Shown piece by piece: positions 4,572 to 20,262 of a stretch of DNA of 64,000 nt. Position 1 is the first letter of the stretch; each line of letters opens with the position of its first letter. Under the pieces are notes generated by a model that saw only the letters and a program-made list of their open reading frames with translations, was not told where the DNA came from and searched no databases. The position numbers and the translations under genes are program-made. Source of the DNA: Salinibacterium amurskyense (GTDB taxonomy: Bacteria; Actinomycetota; Actinomycetes; Actinomycetales; Microbacteriaceae); NCBI RefSeq assembly GCF_002797685.1, contig NZ_PGFH01000003.1:1-64000 (forward strand). Reading direction: 5' to 3'.

Positions 4572-4758
4572 GTCCTCTCCGCTCTGTATTGGGCCTGAGA
4601 GTTTCCGCACGCTTGTGGCGTCGCGTTGCCCCGTCGGCGAGTCGGGCAGGGCCGACTACTTTTCAGAGTTGCCTATCCACTGCGGTACTGGGGCCTGAGA
4701 GATTCCCGGAGAGGGTTTGCTCCTACGGCGCCAACCATCGATCGGAAGGACTCTCCCG
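4572..4758 (-). ncRNA. Tandem glycine riboswitch upstream of sdaA
   Basis: Read on the minus strand, this stretch has two glycine-aptamer cores: CTCTCAGGC occurs twice (4693-4701 and 4593-4601). The first core is preceded by GGGAGAGTCC and GTAGGAGCAAACC and followed by the ACTCTGAAAAG that closes the aptamer; the second is closed by GCGGAGAGGACT. This is the two-aptamer gcvT-type layout. It lies about 47 bases before the sdaA start and in the same direction. Aptamer edges are approximate. I did not fold the expression platform, so ON or OFF logic is not claimed. Confidence 0.93.
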
Positions 4759-4848
4759 CGGCGGAATGACGGCTGTTCACTTGTGCCCTCAGCATACACT
4801 CGGGGCCGATTTGGCGGCCGGAAATGTGCACTGAAACAGGTGCTCAGT

Positions 4849-16139: not shown

Positions 16140-16306
16140 GTCAAACCGCCTACTTTCAGTTCTGGTGTTCACTTCAACGACGCGCAGTCTGCGCGCCAGA
16201 CATCCCCACCAATGTTAATCGCTTTGTTGTGCGTCTGCTGGTCGTGAGGCGGCGATCTTCGTTATTTTCATGACTTTTTTGCAGATTGTTTTCGAGTAGT
16301 GACCTT

Positions 16307-16312
16307 TAGGCT
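16307..16312 (+). promoter_or_regulatory. -10 element for leaderless guaB1
   Basis: TAGGCT ends exactly 7 bases before ATG 16320. This spacing decides the start against upstream in-frame codons. Confidence 0.55.
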
Positions 16313-16319
16313 CGTGACC

Positions 16320-17756
16320 ATGGATTTCTACGAGACCACGCCCACCCACGATTTGACCTACTCAGACGTGTTTTTGGTGCCGAGCCACTCGTCGGTGGGG
16401 AGCCGGATGTCGGTTTCGCTCGCCCCGGGAGACGGTACCTCGGCCACCATCCCTCTCGTTGCTTCGAACATGAACTCCGTCACGGGCCCACGCTTGGCCG
16501 CGAGTCTCGCTCGCCGCGGTGGACTCGGAGTGCTGCCGCAAGACCTCAGTGACACCGATATGGCGGATGCTCTGGCCTGGGTGCGCGCCCAGCCCATCGA
16601 TCTCGATTCCGCCGTGTTCTTGAGCCCGCAAGACACCGTGGAACAAGCGCTACTTCTGGTTCCACCGCTCGCCGGCCACGGCGTTGTACTGATGAACGAC
16701 GGCGCGCTCGCCGGAGTGGTGGATGCCGAACGCCTGGCCACTGCGTTGCCCGGTGCTGAACTGGGCGATATCGCCGGCGCTGACACCCACGCCATTGAGC
16801 GCGCAGACTTCGGTAGTGCCCGCGAGCTCTTCGACCTTCTGGTGGAGCGCGACCGTAACTTCGCCCCTGTTGTGGATGGTGGCACGGTAGTCGGCACCAC
16901 AAGTAAGACGAGTGCGCTCCGTTCCACTCTCTATACCCCAGCGCTCGACAGCGAAGGCAAGCTTGCCGTCGCTGCCGCGCTCGGAATTAACGGTGACGTT
17001 GCCGCGAAGGCTCGTGCCCTCGTCGCCGCTGGCGCGAGCACCCTCGTTCTTGACACCGCGCACGGCCATCAAGAAGGGATGGTGCGAGCCGTTGAGATCG
17101 TGGCCGCGCTTGACCTGGGCGTACCGATTGTCGCCGGCAATGTCGTGACGAGTGCCGCCGTTCGCGATCTCGTGGGCGCGGGCGCCACGATCATCAAAGT
17201 CGGCGTTGGGCCCGGCGCCATGTGCACCACGCGCATGATGACCGCGGTCGGTCGCCCCCAGTTCTCTGCCGTGCTCGAAACCGCGGCAACCGCTCGTGAA
17301 CTCGGCGCGCACGTGTGGGCAGATGGCGGAGTGCGCTACCCGCGTGACGTTGCGCTCGCGCTCGCGGCGGGCGGAGCATCCGTCATGATCGGCTCCTGGT
17401 TTGCCGGCACGATCGAAGCGCCGGGAGAGTTGCGCACCGACGACGCCGGCGCTCTCTACAAGACCAGCTGGGGGATGGCATCCACAAAGGCCGTACGCGC
17501 TCGCTTCGGCGGGCTCGACGCCTACGAACTCGCGCGCAAGGAACTCTTTGCCGAAGGTATCTCGGGCTCGAAAATCTACCTCGACCCTGCTCGCCCGTCG
17601 ATCGATGACCTCGTTGACATGATCACCTCGGGAGTGCGCAGTTCGTGCACCTACGCCGGTGCTGCAAACCTGCGTGAGTTTCGGGAGCGCGCCCTCGTGG
17701 GAATCCAGTCGGCAGCAGGGTACGAAGAGGGCAAAGCCTTGCCTGTGAGCTGGTAA
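16320..17756 (+). CDS. guaB1: GuaB1 family IMP dehydrogenase-related protein
   Basis: A 478-residue TIM-barrel protein with an inserted CBS pair (about 90-200). Seen: VPLVASNMNSV-type stretch (PLVASNMNSVTG, about 45-56), LDTAHGHQEGM, the catalytic loop GVGPGAMCTTRMMTAVGRPQ with its Cys, and WADGGVRYPRDVALALAAG. The loop with MCTTRMMTAVGRPQ marks the GuaB1 group; the mycobacterial member was shown to be a GMP reductase rather than an IMP dehydrogenase, so a purine-salvage role (GMP to IMP) is more likely. ATG 16320 is chosen because TAGGCT lies 7 bases before it. Confidence 0.88.
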   Translation: MDFYETTPTHDLTYSDVFLVPSHSSVGSRMSVSLAPGDGTSATIPLVASNMNSVTGPRLAASLARRGGLGVLPQDLSDTDMADALAWVRAQPIDLDSAVFLSPQDTVEQALLLVPPLAGHGVVLMNDGALAGVVDAERLATALPGAELGDIAGADTHAIERADFGSARELFDLLVERDRNFAPVVDGGTVVGTTSKTSALRSTLYTPALDSEGKLAVAAALGINGDVAAKARALVAAGASTLVLDTAHGHQEGMVRAVEIVAALDLGVPIVAGNVVTSAAVRDLVGAGATIIKVGVGPGAMCTTRMMTAVGRPQFSAVLETAATARELGAHVWADGGVRYPRDVALALAAGGASVMIGSWFAGTIEAPGELRTDDAGALYKTSWGMASTKAVRARFGGLDAYELARKELFAEGISGSKIYLDPARPSIDDLVDMITSGVRSSCTYAGAANLREFRERALVGIQSAAGYEEGKALPVSW

Positions 17757-17785
17757 CGCAACTCTCGTTTCTCAGCGATTTGTCC

Positions 17786-17791
17786 TATACT
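17786..17791 (+). promoter_or_regulatory. -10 element for CNNM leader ORF
   Basis: TATACT, a near-consensus -10, ends 10 bases before the leader ATG at 17802. The message would begin within a few bases of that ATG, so the leader ORF is close to leaderless. Confidence 0.6.
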
Positions 17792-17801
17792 CAAGCCCAT
17801 A

Positions 17802-17909
17802 ATGGACGACCCTCCCTCTAGTCGTCGCCGGAGCCACGCTCCGTGCGACCATCACTTATTTTTCGCCCGTTCTCTACCTACCTCCGCGGCTGGAGGTGAT
17901 CTGTCATGA
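17802..17909 (+). CDS. Leader peptide of CNNM/CorC operon, putative Mg2+ sensor
   Basis: A 35-codon ORF between a TATACT -10 and the CNNM gene. Its product starts MDDPPSSRRR and ends AAGGDLS. The stop TGA overlaps the ATG of the next gene (ATGA). Two inverted repeats lie inside it: 17821-17848 followed by a T-rich tract, and ACCTCC-N6-GGAGGT (17880-17897), which encloses the Shine-Dalgarno of the next gene. Acidic-proline N-termini make ribosomes fall off at low Mg2+ in enterobacterial MgtL. By analogy this ORF could couple Mg2+ level to CNNM translation (inference). Very small size means coding status is not proven. Confidence 0.65.
   Translation: MDDPPSSRRRSHAPCDHHLFFARSLPTSAAGGDLS
17821..17848 (+). 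other. Hairpin within leader ORF, terminator-like
   Basis: GTCG-N-CGCCGGAGC pairs with GCTCCGTGCGAC across a three-base loop, with one or two bulges. TTATTTTT follows 6 bases later, giving an intrinsic-terminator look inside the leader reading frame. A translating ribosome would melt it. Confidence 0.55.
17880..17897 (+). promoter_or_regulatory. Shine-Dalgarno-sequestering hairpin before CNNM gene
   Basis: ACCTCC (17880-17885) and GGAGGT (17892-17897) form a perfect 6-base stem with a 6-base loop. GGAGGT is the core of the strong Shine-Dalgarno TGGAGGTGATC placed just before ATG 17906. The stem lies within the last codons of the leader ORF, so only a ribosome finishing the leader would open it. 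Confidence 0.75.
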
Positions 17910-19228
17910 ATGAATGGCTTCTCTTCGCCGCTGGCCTCGTGCTGACTGTCGGCACCGGCTTCTTCGTCGCCTCCGAATTCGCGCTCGTGAACCTCGACCG
18001 TTCAGACCTCGAAGCTCGTCAAGAGCGTGGCGAAAAGCGACTCGCAACCACCATCGCGGCGCTCAAGCACACCTCGACTCACCTCTCGAGTGCTCAGCTC
18101 GGCATCACTCTGACGACACTGCTCGCGGGCTACACCCTCGAACCTGCTTTCAGCACCTGGCTAGAGGCACCGCTCGGTACCGTCTTGCCTGACGCAGCAG
18201 TGACCATCATCGCGAGCATCCTGGCCGTCACCTTTGCCACACTGCTGTCGATGATCGTTGGCGAGCTCGTGCCGAAGAACTTCGCGCTTGCACTCCCGCG
18301 AGCGACAGCCAAGTTCGTCGTTCCCTTTCAGGTGCTCTTCACGACGGTGTTCAAACCCGCCGTCAGCCTGCTCAACAACACGGCAAACGGCATCCTTCGT
18401 TCTGTAGGAATCGAGCCGAAAGAAGAACTTTCTGGCGCCCGCACCGCTGAAGAACTGACCTCGCTTGTGCGCCGCTCGGCCAGCCAAGGCAGTCTCGAAG
18501 CCGACACCGCAACGCTGTTGGCACGCACGCTGGCCTTTGCCGATCACACAGCGCAAGACGTGATGACTCCGCGACCACGGGTCGACAGCATCGACCGCAC
18601 CGACAGCGCTCAAGACGTGATCGACCTCGCCAAGCGCACCGGTTTCTCTCGCTTCCCGGTAATCGACGACAGCATCGACGATGTTGTGGGTCTCGTACAC
18701 ATCAAGCAAGCCGTTGCGGTGCCCCACAAGAAGCGTGCCGACGTGCCCGTTTCGGCTCTGCAGACCGAAGCGCTCCAAGTGCCAGAAACGATGCGACTGG
18801 ATGCCCTGCTCGCCGAACTGCGTGGCCGCGGTTACCAAATGGCCGTCGTCGTTGACGAATACGGCGGAACCGCCGGAGTCGCGACGCTCGAAGACCTCGT
18901 GGAAGAACTCGTCGGTGAAGTCTCCGATGAACATGACCGCTCGAAGGCCGACGTAGTCCGTTCTCGCGACTGGTTTACCTTCCCCGCAATTCTGCGCCCG
19001 GATGAGCTCCTCGAGCGCACCGGCGTTGAAGTTCCCGAAGAAGGCCCCTACGAAACCGTGGCCGGTTGGCTCATGAGCGAGCTCGGTCGCGTTCCGCGCA
19101 CGGGCGACACGATTACCGCCGCAGGCGGAGTGTTCCGCATTGAACGACTGGAAGGTCGACGCATCGACCGCGTGAGGTTTACCCCTGATCCGATTGTCAC
19201 CGCTACCGATGCCGAGGTGGTGAGCTAA
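17906..19228 (+). CDS. CNNM/CorC family transporter, copy 1 (hemolysin-like)
   Basis: A 440-residue membrane protein with a CNNM (DUF21) transmembrane domain (about 1-190), a pair of CBS domains (about 205-330, starting at TAQDVMTPRPRVDSI) and a C-terminal CorC_HlyC domain (about 345-425). The family moves Mg2+ (and possibly Co2+); related MpfA proteins export Mg2+ in Firmicutes. ATG 17906 overlaps the leader ORF stop and follows a very strong Shine-Dalgarno held in a hairpin. Its stop overlaps the next start (TAATG), so both CNNM copies are co-translated. Confidence 0.9.
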   Translation: MNEWLLFAAGLVLTVGTGFFVASEFALVNLDRSDLEARQERGEKRLATTIAALKHTSTHLSSAQLGITLTTLLAGYTLEPAFSTWLEAPLGTVLPDAAVTIIASILAVTFATLLSMIVGELVPKNFALALPRATAKFVVPFQVLFTTVFKPAVSLLNNTANGILRSVGIEPKEELSGARTAEELTSLVRRSASQGSLEADTATLLARTLAFADHTAQDVMTPRPRVDSIDRTDSAQDVIDLAKRTGFSRFPVIDDSIDDVVGLVHIKQAVAVPHKKRADVPVSALQTEALQVPETMRLDALLAELRGRGYQMAVVVDEYGGTAGVATLEDLVEELVGEVSDEHDRSKADVVRSRDWFTFPAILRPDELLERTGVEVPEEGPYETVAGWLMSELGRVPRTGDTITAAGGVFRIERLEGRRIDRVRFTPDPIVTATDAEVVS

Positions 19229-20262
19229 TGGACGTCTGGGGAATCATCTGGCTATTCGTACTGCTGCTCGTCAACGCTTTCTTCGTTGGCGCGGAATTTG
19301 CCGTTATCTCGGCACGTCGATCGCAGATTGAGCCGCTCGCGGCATCCGGTTCACGTTCGGCAAAGACTGCGTTGTGGGCCATGGAGCACGCGACGCTCAT
19401 GCTCGCGGCCTGCCAACTGGGCATCACGGTGTGTTCGCTGCTGATCCTGAATGTGTCTGAACCTGCGATCCACCACTTGCTTGAAGTGCCGCTTGCGCTG
19501 ACCGGTTTGAGCGAAGAGCTGATCAGCACCATCGCGTTCATCATGGCGCTCATCATCGTCTCGTTCCTGCACGTTGTGCTCGGCGAAATGGTGCCGAAGA
19601 ACCTTTCGTTCTCGGTGCCCGACCGCGCGGTGCTGATTCTGGCTCCGCCACTGGTGTTCATCGCAACAGTGTTCCGCCCGATCATCGTTGCGCTCAACGC
19701 GACAGCGAACGGCATCCTGCGCCTCTTCAAGGTTGAACCCAAGAACGAAGCAAACAGTGTTTTCACGCTCGACGAAGTGGCGACGATCGTCGCACAGTCG
19801 ACGCGCGAAGGCGTACTGACGGATGCCGGTGGCACGCTCACCGGTGCGTTCGAGTTCACGTCGAAAAAGGTTCGCGATGTCGCAATTCCGATGTCGGGGC
19901 TCGTCACGCTGCCCGAGGACGCCGCCCCGGCGGACCTCGAGAAGGCTGTAGCTCAACGAGGGTTCTCGCGCTACATCCTGCTGAACGATGCAGGGGAGCC
20001 CACCGGCTACCTTCACCTCAAGGATGTAATCGATCTCGACGAGAGCGAGTTCCACGAGCCTGTTCCGCCCAAGCGGATTCGCCAGCTCATTTCGATGTAC
20101 TGCGAAACCGACCTCGAAGATGCCCTCGCGACTATGCGTCGCTCGGGCGTTCACGTGGCGCGCAGCTTCGATGCCACAGGCGAGACCACCGGTGTGCTGT
20201 TCCTCGAGGACATCATCGAAGTGCTCGTCGGCGAAGTGCAAGACGCCACCCGGCGTCGCTAA
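19228..20262 (+). CDS. CNNM/CorC family transporter, copy 2
   Basis: A 344-residue relative of the upstream gene: a DUF21 membrane domain (about 1-185) with FVGAEFAVISARRS and a CBS pair (about 200-330, starting KVRDVAIPMSGLV). It is about 95 residues shorter because the C-terminal CorC_HlyC domain is missing. Its start shares a base with the upstream stop (TAATG). Paired long and short CNNM genes in one operon are common in actinobacteria and suggest that the two proteins act together, perhaps as a heterodimer (inference). Confidence 0.88.
   Translation: MDVWGIIWLFVLLLVNAFFVGAEFAVISARRSQIEPLAASGSRSAKTALWAMEHATLMLAACQLGITVCSLLILNVSEPAIHHLLEVPLALTGLSEELISTIAFIMALIIVSFLHVVLGEMVPKNLSFSVPDRAVLILAPPLVFIATVFRPIIVALNATANGILRLFKVEPKNEANSVFTLDEVATIVAQSTREGVLTDAGGTLTGAFEFTSKKVRDVAIPMSGLVTLPEDAAPADLEKAVAQRGFSRYILLNDAGEPTGYLHLKDVIDLDESEFHEPVPPKRIRQLISMYCETDLEDALATMRRSGVHVARSFDATGETTGVLFLEDIIEVLVGEVQDATRRR

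Follow-up and report, generated by a model that had tools for sequence, protein, structure and literature searches.

A conserved acidic-proline leader ORF overlapping the CNNM1 start in actinobacteria: a candidate cation-responsive translational switch

Gene organization of the CNNM1 locus

The window, that is, the whole stretch of 64,000 nt analysed here (Salinibacterium amurskyense, contig NZ_PGFH01000003.1, positions 1 to 64,000), carries two adjacent genes for CNNM family proteins on the + strand. By Pfam, CNNM1 (17906..19228, 440 aa) consists of a CNNM domain, two CBS domains and a CorC_HlyC domain, and its stop overlaps the start of CNNM2 (19228..20262), which has a CNNM domain and a CBS domain. 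The sequence relatives of CNNM1 with solved structures are CorC/CorB/CNNM chains; the match to the profile of the polyamine exporter PaeA, which is also a CNNM relative, lies far below the cut-off. CNNM/CorB proteins have been linked to Mg2+ transport, in a direction that is debated (PMC8242095). By family membership (Pfam), CNNM1 is a putative Mg2+ transporter of the exporter type. The next gene upstream (16299..17756, + strand) encodes GuaB1, a GMP reductase/IMPDH-like protein that scores above the cut-off of the NCBIfam equivalog NF052358.

The gap between GuaB1 and CNNM1 is 149 nt long, and inside it lie a -10 box, TATACT (17786..17791), and a leader ORF of 35 codons on the + strand (17802..17909; MDDPPSSRRRSHAPCDHHLFFARSLPTSAAGGDLS). 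The -10 box is 10 nt 5' of the leader ATG, and from this distance the transcription start is predicted to be the A at 17799, 3 nt 5' of the same ATG. The leader opens with the core ATG GAC GAC CCT CCC TCT (17802..17819), which encodes M-D-D-P-P-S and is delimited by conservation; CCT (Pro4) and TCT (Ser6) are its slow or rare codons. Its stop codon, TGA (17907-17909), overlaps the CNNM1 start ATG at 17906 as ATGA. The -10 box, the 35-codon ORF beginning with MDDPP and the ATGA overlap are present just as the initial annotation described them. The sequence ATGGAYGAYCCNCCN has a single occurrence in the window's genome, at the leader.

When the leader region (17600-18100) was compared with Rfam, no match was obtained at E values up to 10, and the leader hence has no membership in any leader RNA family described there. 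Across the whole window, only tRNA, a glycine riboswitch and 5S rRNA were detected at the gathering cut-off. The glycine riboswitch aptamer (RF00504, 55 bits) is located at 4673-4768 on the - strand, and the 5S rRNA (RF00001) at 1-84 on the + strand, where it is truncated by the window edge.

Conservation of the leader ORF

CNNM1 orthologs were gathered purely by protein similarity, so the sampling was not biased toward the leader. The loci comprised 76 named ones, 30 from 150 genomes of the same family, presumably Microbacteriaceae, 29 new ones from 246 class genomes and 59 chosen CNNM1 regions from the family and class genome searches; 6 were unusable, and 188 were left, of which 167 are non-redundant. 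The leader core (class A) was defined as M-x(0-1)-[DE]-P-P within 250 nt 5' of CNNM1, with no requirement for an open frame. This core is found at 104 of the 167 non-redundant loci, compared with 103 matches in 8350 dinucleotide shuffles, 26 of which have a stop at the correct place. Grouped by CNNM1 identity, it is present at 4/4 loci with at least 90%, at 68/74 with 70-89% and at 29/43 with 58-69%, that is, at 101 of the 121 non-redundant loci whose CNNM1 is at least 58% identical; at 50-57% it is present at 0/14 loci, and below 50% at 3/32.

With variants included, a leader is found at the expected place in 118 of these 121 loci (L124, L125 and L174 being scored as without one), 17 of which are variants that were assigned by eye and are weaker evidence than the class A pattern matches. 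The variants include MDDLP[HS]HSPWPL (Micromonosporaceae), MDDSSGHRPRL (Leucobacter), MDDHHH, MDHPP and MDGSDS, among others, and the proline pair is gone in some relatives (MDDLP, MDDSS, MDDHH and MDGSDS). Over all 118 leaders, pattern misses included, residue 2 is Asp in 108, residue 3 is Asp or Glu in 112, residue 4 is Pro in 106 and residue 5 is Pro in 108; conserved acidic and proline residues directly follow the initiating Met.

On the CNNM1 tree, 14, 17 and 99 changes were inferred at positions 1, 2 and 3 of codons 2-5, and residue changes at codons 2, 3, 4 and 5 numbered 7, 10, 9 and 9, all of these counts including the pattern misses, since counting only regex-selected leaders would be circular for codons 3-5. 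An exact one-codon in-frame deletion (MEPP) is found in L028, L065 and L073; Microcella has MEPP. For 103 of 104 leaders, the stop ends within -7 to +13 of the CNNM1 start, the exception being L065 at +101. None of the 104 leaders is in the CNNM1 frame (67:37:0), and between the leader ATG and CNNM1, stops are present in frames 0, +1 and +2 of 0, 49 and 72 of 90 leaders, respectively.

Third-position changes together with one-codon deletions are the signature of a translated peptide start. The initial annotation had taken the leader to be translated and had predicted a conserved Met-acidic-Pro start with synonymous changes among orthologs; the comparison of the upstream regions bears out both, and the random starts, stops or frameshifts in relatives that would have spoken against it were not seen, the frame being kept. 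The window leader belongs to a conserved leader family, which is present at nearly all close relatives examined and at several more distant actinobacteria, and it is probably translated in the cell.

Some loci depart from this picture. At L132, L133 and L134, the leader ORF was not found and CNNM1 itself looks leaderless (TAGGAT 7-8 nt 5' of the ATG), as if the leader had been lost. In L194, L196 and L197, whose genomes are 1.3-1.5 Mb in size, M-D is kept and the proline pair is lost (MDGSDS, MDSLPRSSKP and MDGPHRYATP); by eye, these leaders still finish at the CNNM1 start.

The stop-start overlap in 103 of 104 leaders would also be expected from constitutive translational coupling, by which the leader only loads ribosomes and fixes the CNNM1 level without reading any signal. 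Overlaps of the ATGA kind are common between prokaryotic genes and have been suggested to serve translational coupling (PMC6728339). However, a plain loader would have no need of a slow-codon Asp-Pro-Pro start, which is retained at about a hundred loci although the remainder of the peptide varies, and this explanation is regarded as rather improbable.

Codon choice in the leader

Pro4 is encoded by CCT in 80 and by CCC in 19 of 101 leaders (99/101 for the two), compared with 5.5% CCT and 37.6% CCC among 1817 Pro codons in the CNNM1 genes. At Pro5, CCC (42), CCT (33), CCG (21) and CCA (5) are all used. Ser6 is TCT, AGT or TCA in 84 of 86 leaders, against 11.9% of 2318 Ser codons in the CNNM1 genes. 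On the other hand, the share of GAT is 34/93 at Asp2 and 8/95 at Asp3, versus 21.7% in the CNNM1 genes, so the bias at Pro4 and Ser6 is not a general preference for A/T endings. On these frequencies, the codons of the leader, and not its residues alone, are under selection.

In E. coli, a proline pair that opens with CCC or CCU is translated slowly, is slippery and is avoided (PMC8129111); that a codon of this type is nevertheless kept in the leader suits a designed pause. Consecutive prolines in a pausing context are present, judged by sequence only, and ribosomes are likely to pause at Pro4-Pro5 of the leader. In addition, long leaders (e.g., L041, L072, L097 and L115) carry a second motif, S-H-x-P-S-P, with the unusual codons CAT AGT/AGA CCC TCG CCC, and a role of these codons in the Shine-Dalgarno (SD) hairpin is possible. 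In the leader tails, His is encoded by CAT in 47% of 76 codons, versus 16% in the CNNM1 genes.

Two other explanations of this codon usage have to be weighed. The bias at Pro4 and Ser6 exceeds the amino acid requirement, and the probable Streptomyces loci described below also conserve about 20 nt 5' of the start, as might be expected if the first 18 nt were a DNA or RNA element (a regulator site, an anti-SD or part of the promoter) and the peptide were incidental. Nevertheless, the changes are mainly at third positions (14/17/99), in-frame 3-nt deletions occur, Ser6 is TCT, TCA or AGT, the last of which shares no letter with the others at positions 1-2, codons 1-6 show no covariation with the SD (3279 and 2816 of 5000), and no Rfam family was matched at E up to 10, all of which makes such an element very improbable. 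The second explanation is a programmed +1 frameshift at CCT-CCN, by which leader and CNNM1 would be joined in one protein. Ribosomes are known to slip on CCC/U-C (PMC8129111), and a +1 shift would suit 67 of 104 leaders, but 37 of 104 require the other shift. A leader-CNNM1 fusion is also largely refuted by the CNNM1 frame itself, which from codon 5 onward is interrupted ahead of the CNNM1 start by a stop in 75 of 104 leaders, and it is barely credible.

Promoter position and specificity for CNNM1

A TANNNT motif is located 10 nt before the leader ATG in 62 and 9 nt before it in 26 of 101 five-codon leaders; 3 of the 101 are without this motif at 5-14 nt, and the background further upstream is 0.002 per position. 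The nucleotide at -3 of the leader ATG is A in 79% of the 101 leaders. The fixed -10 spacing and the A at -3 imply that transcription probably begins about 3 nt upstream of the leader ATG, so that the leader mRNA is probably near-leaderless in the window's family.

In the 150 family genomes, the combined pattern TANNNT-N10-ATG-GAN-GAN-CCN-CCN has 64 matches, spread over 61 genomes, versus none for the reversed pattern; the other 89 genomes may still carry leaders, as spacing and residues vary beyond the pattern. Among these near-leaderless M[DE][DE]PP sites, 62 are at most 350 nt 5' of a listed CNNM1, and the remaining 2, located where a contig end truncates the gene, also run into CNNM1. Hence, 64/64 sites in the 150 family genomes precede CNNM1, and none precedes another gene. 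A looser pattern gave 35 sites in 60 genomes, versus 2 for its reversed form; 33 of the 35 are before CNNM1, as is L200, and L202 is without CNNM1 in the three downstream frames. Genomes with two CNNM1 paralogs can bear the leader on both (G002, G086, G149, G035 and G044).

Pairing of the leader with the CNNM1 Shine-Dalgarno sequence

The SD of CNNM1, GGAGGT (17892..17897, + strand), is 8 nt 5' of the ATG and is fully complementary to an anti-SD, ACCTCC (17880..17885), in codons 27-28 of the leader, with a loop of 6 nt. The initial annotation proposed that these two stretches form a stem. The complementarity is indeed perfect, but the pair probability of this stem is 0.01 when 30 nt of CNNM1 are folded along, compared with approximately 0.48 without the coding sequence; with the 30 nt included, the SD favours a different pairing partner. 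Among 52 loci compared, L005, L006 and L008 alone have the 18-nt hairpin with every nucleotide unchanged, and the arm is located at codons 8-15 in most long leaders, versus codons 27-28 in the window.

Consensus folding of 21 PL-type leaders yielded a weak short stem only (-3.42 kcal/mol), with the SD arms in different alignment columns. An alignment-free swap test was used instead, in which the pairing of each arm with its own SD is compared with that of arms swapped between loci. In the PL-type leaders (H-x-P-x-P-L and similar; 27 leaders, 20 representatives), codons 8-15 pair with their own SD at -21.8 kcal/mol, compared with -18.3 kcal/mol for swapped arms (0/20000 permutations), and the SD partners are mostly at codons 11-13. 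For all 68 representatives of at least 60 nt, the values for codons 8-15 are -15.06 kcal/mol with their own SD and -13.37 kcal/mol when swapped (0/5000), an effect of 1.7 kcal/mol. Two windows inside CNNM1 served as a control and gave 3385 and 2181 of 5000. Three further controls, namely far-upstream DNA against the SD (104/5000, 0.7 kcal/mol), the reversed SD (227/5000, 0.5 kcal/mol) and the arm against positions -20 to -5 of the leader (488/5000, 0.3 kcal/mol), lean the same way as the real pair, so relatedness contributes to the arm-SD signal.

In the long leaders, the arm co-varies with the CNNM1 SD, and this part of the proposed stem is upheld beyond the window. In long leaders of other than PL type, the covariation is weak or absent (558, 211, 987 and 2791 of 20000, depending on the set and window chosen). 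The mean SD pairing probability is 0.84, versus 0.78 in codon-shuffled leaders (92 leaders, p = 2.5e-5), and the duplex energies of single leaders are only modestly better than those of codon shuffles (mean z -0.49; 16 of 91 in the best 5%). Codons 1-6 were considered separately as a candidate anti-SD. They show no covariation with the SD (3279 and 2816 of 5000), and in leaders shorter than 55 nt they give no signal either (-6.77 vs -6.86 kcal/mol; 24 representatives); the conserved codons are therefore rejected as an anti-SD in both long and short leaders. Finally, 27 of the 118 leaders start at most 46 nt before CNNM1 and have little room for an SD stem, and the SD stem appears to be only one of two leader architectures.

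A second stem-loop is located inside the window leader (17824..17849, + strand). It corresponds to the hairpin with a T-tract near codon 7 that had been annotated before, and from which a terminator on ribosome drop-off had been suggested. The stem exists, but it is followed by CATCAC and only afterwards by TTATTTTT, whose T-run (17856-17863) is 6 nt off the stem; L005, L006 and L008, all near relatives, have this T-run interrupted (TGTTTCTC). No intrinsic terminator was called on the + strand of 17000-18500. The stem-loop is thus not a canonical terminator, and the suggestion of termination on drop-off is not supported.

Leaders in more distant groups

A CNNM paralog in a group of genomes (f23), which we guess to be Streptomyces, has an M-G-[ED]-P-P leader at 14 of 18 loci (L157, L167 and 12 of L203-L218), the misses being L206 (MSEPSS), L209, L211 and L213. 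In these leaders, codon 4 is CCT in 14/14 and codon 6 is AGT in 11, and they finish on the CNNM start via ATGA. Residue 2 is Gly, which means that two acids are not required in the leader. An SD-like stretch is located 5' of the leader, so its start is probably not leaderless in this group. In these loci, the MGEPP leader is preceded by approximately 20 nt that hardly vary (GAAAGGTGTGAGCGTCCGCCC), and at most of them the leader start is situated within the palindrome CGCCCATGGGCG; the two together might serve as a ribosome site and a regulator site. A further f23 paralog was examined at three loci (L156, L158 and L166), and no leader was found there. Among the nine loci of another group (f29, at a guess Nocardioidaceae), L146 has VNEPPP and L147 and L220 have VTDPD, and no match to the leader pattern was obtained at L143-L145, L219, L221 and L222.

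Proposed mechanism and signal

Based on the results presented above, we propose that the leader is a cis-acting ORF whose own translation licenses the translation of CNNM1 and that it responds to free Mg2+ or total cations, and we assign this reading a probability of roughly 0.55. Transcription from the promoter 10 nt upstream would yield a near-leaderless mRNA, and a ribosome would begin on the leader at its 5' end. It would immediately have to make Met-Asp-Asp-Pro-Pro-Ser, with CCT at Pro4, CCN at Pro5 and a rare codon at Ser6, a stretch predicted to be prone to pausing and abortion while few residues are yet in the tunnel. In long leaders, a ribosome that passes through would melt the arm covering the SD; it would then terminate on the CNNM1 start codon and re-initiate there. 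If it paused or fell off at codons 3-6, the arm of a long leader would be free to close the CNNM1 SD, and in leaders of 11-16 codons, a ribosome paused at codons 4-5 may itself cover the CNNM1 start region, as its footprint size suggests. Most likely, then, completing the pause-prone Asp-Pro-Pro start would switch CNNM1 translation on; the strength of the coupling between leader and CNNM1 is something we infer.

If completion favours CNNM1 and CNNM1 is an exporter-type Mg2+ protein, the natural signal would be high Mg2+ or an excess of cations, for which MgtL and the Salmonella CorC-family gene under YoaL, both described below, are precedents. The occurrence of the leader solely before the CNNM gene (64/64 near-leaderless sites) likewise points to a cation signal, presumably free Mg2+ or total cations, polyamines included. 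At high levels of either, the ribosome would be stabilised and the exporter-type CNNM1 turned on.

The initial annotation viewed the acidic-proline start as a ribosome destabiliser. The conservation of the acidic and proline residues agrees with this view, but the widest core is acidic-Pro-Pro (MGEPP and MEPP), and polyproline pausing is therefore no less plausible than ribosome destabilisation by acidic residues. Here lies the main rival explanation, namely, that the leader is a polyproline gauge in which Asp-Pro-Pro pausing is set by EF-P, proline-tRNA or the EttA/ATP level, with Mg2+ acting at most indirectly. In line with such a gauge, the most widely shared core has an acidic residue and two prolines rather than two acids, and 99 of 101 leaders have a slow codon, CCC or CCU, at the first proline. 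For MgtL, ribosome drop-off is prevented by EttA, and a helping role of EF-P and EfpL in its synthesis has been reported (PMC11282234, PMC11611912). However, the near-leaderless leader is found only before the CNNM gene (64/64 sites, 150 genomes), and low Mg2+ and proline pausing are not mutually exclusive, so that the gauge is considered unlikely as the explanation in its own right.

Should a cation-responsive leader prove correct, a principle in which the ribosome's own stability reads Mg2+ would not be confined to Enterobacteria and would be used in actinobacteria with the opposite sign and for an exporter-type protein. The CNNM/CorB family would then gain a built-in regulatory reporter, since the sense of the leader response would tell the purpose of the protein. 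In addition, the leader would offer a natural example of a short regulatory ORF in which selection on synonymous codons (CCT at Pro4; TCT, AGT or TCA at Ser6) can be seen.

Comparison with known leader systems

Among the matches listed in the open-access literature, no title or opening of an abstract describes this leader. In function, it appears to resemble MgtL, MgtQ and YoaL, a likeness of function rather than a demonstrated common descent. MgtL, the mgtA leader of E. coli and Salmonella, is likewise a short ORF directly 5' of a Mg2+ transporter gene with an acidic/proline start; in low Mg2+, the ribosome falls off at the early acidic/proline stretch (EPDP) by intrinsic ribosome destabilisation (PMC11282234). 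MgtL represses an importer via Rho-dependent termination. The window leader, in turn, has a stop that overlaps the gene start, no intrinsic terminator found on the + strand and no Rfam match; the downstream protein is a CNNM protein of the exporter type, and the predicted sense is reversed.

In MgtQ, an ORF between mgtC and mgtB of Salmonella, the acidic codons of a mini-ORF govern translation of a Mg2+ transporter via a stem at the ribosome binding site (PMC8092293), and both features, the acidic codons and the stem at the downstream site, recall the window leader. As described there, MgtQ has 8 codons, lies within an operon and raises MgtB upon abortion, whereas for the window leader CNNM1 is predicted to increase on completion; its mRNA is probably near-leaderless and its core is DPP. 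YoaL of Salmonella and E. coli is a leader that overlaps a CorC-family gene of Mg2+ stress in its upstream part, and similarly, the window leader overlaps the CNNM1 start in a different frame. A stop that replaces the YoaL start lowers mgpA/yoaE translation, and mgpA levels are raised in 10 mM Mg2+ when the pH is neutral or alkaline, the signal being left open in that report (PMC12421838). YoaL differs in that it precedes a TerC-CorC gene of Enterobacteria, and no DPP start is described in the portion of PMC12421838 considered here.

Two further systems share single features with the leader. Mycobacterial leaderless uORFs, for example the Cys-rich ones, are leaderless small ORFs before operons, as is probable for the window leader, and have been proposed as attenuators (PMC4633059); they differ in that the proposed signal is cysteine and the gene is not CNNM, and an acidic-proline core is not mentioned in the part of PMC4633059 considered. 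In the proline codon triplet of CadC, slow CCU/CCC codons tune output (PMC8129111), as the slow codons of the leader may do; this triplet, however, is inside a protein and not in a leader. A bolder and somewhat less likely reading is that in several actinomycete lineages the ribosome could act as an excess-cation sensor for a CNNM exporter: the near-leaderless, slow-codon mini-ORF would be finished only where Mg2+ or polyamines stabilise the early ribosome complex, and the exporter would be translated only in that case, in a separately evolved, codon-tuned mirror image of the MgtL switch for importers.
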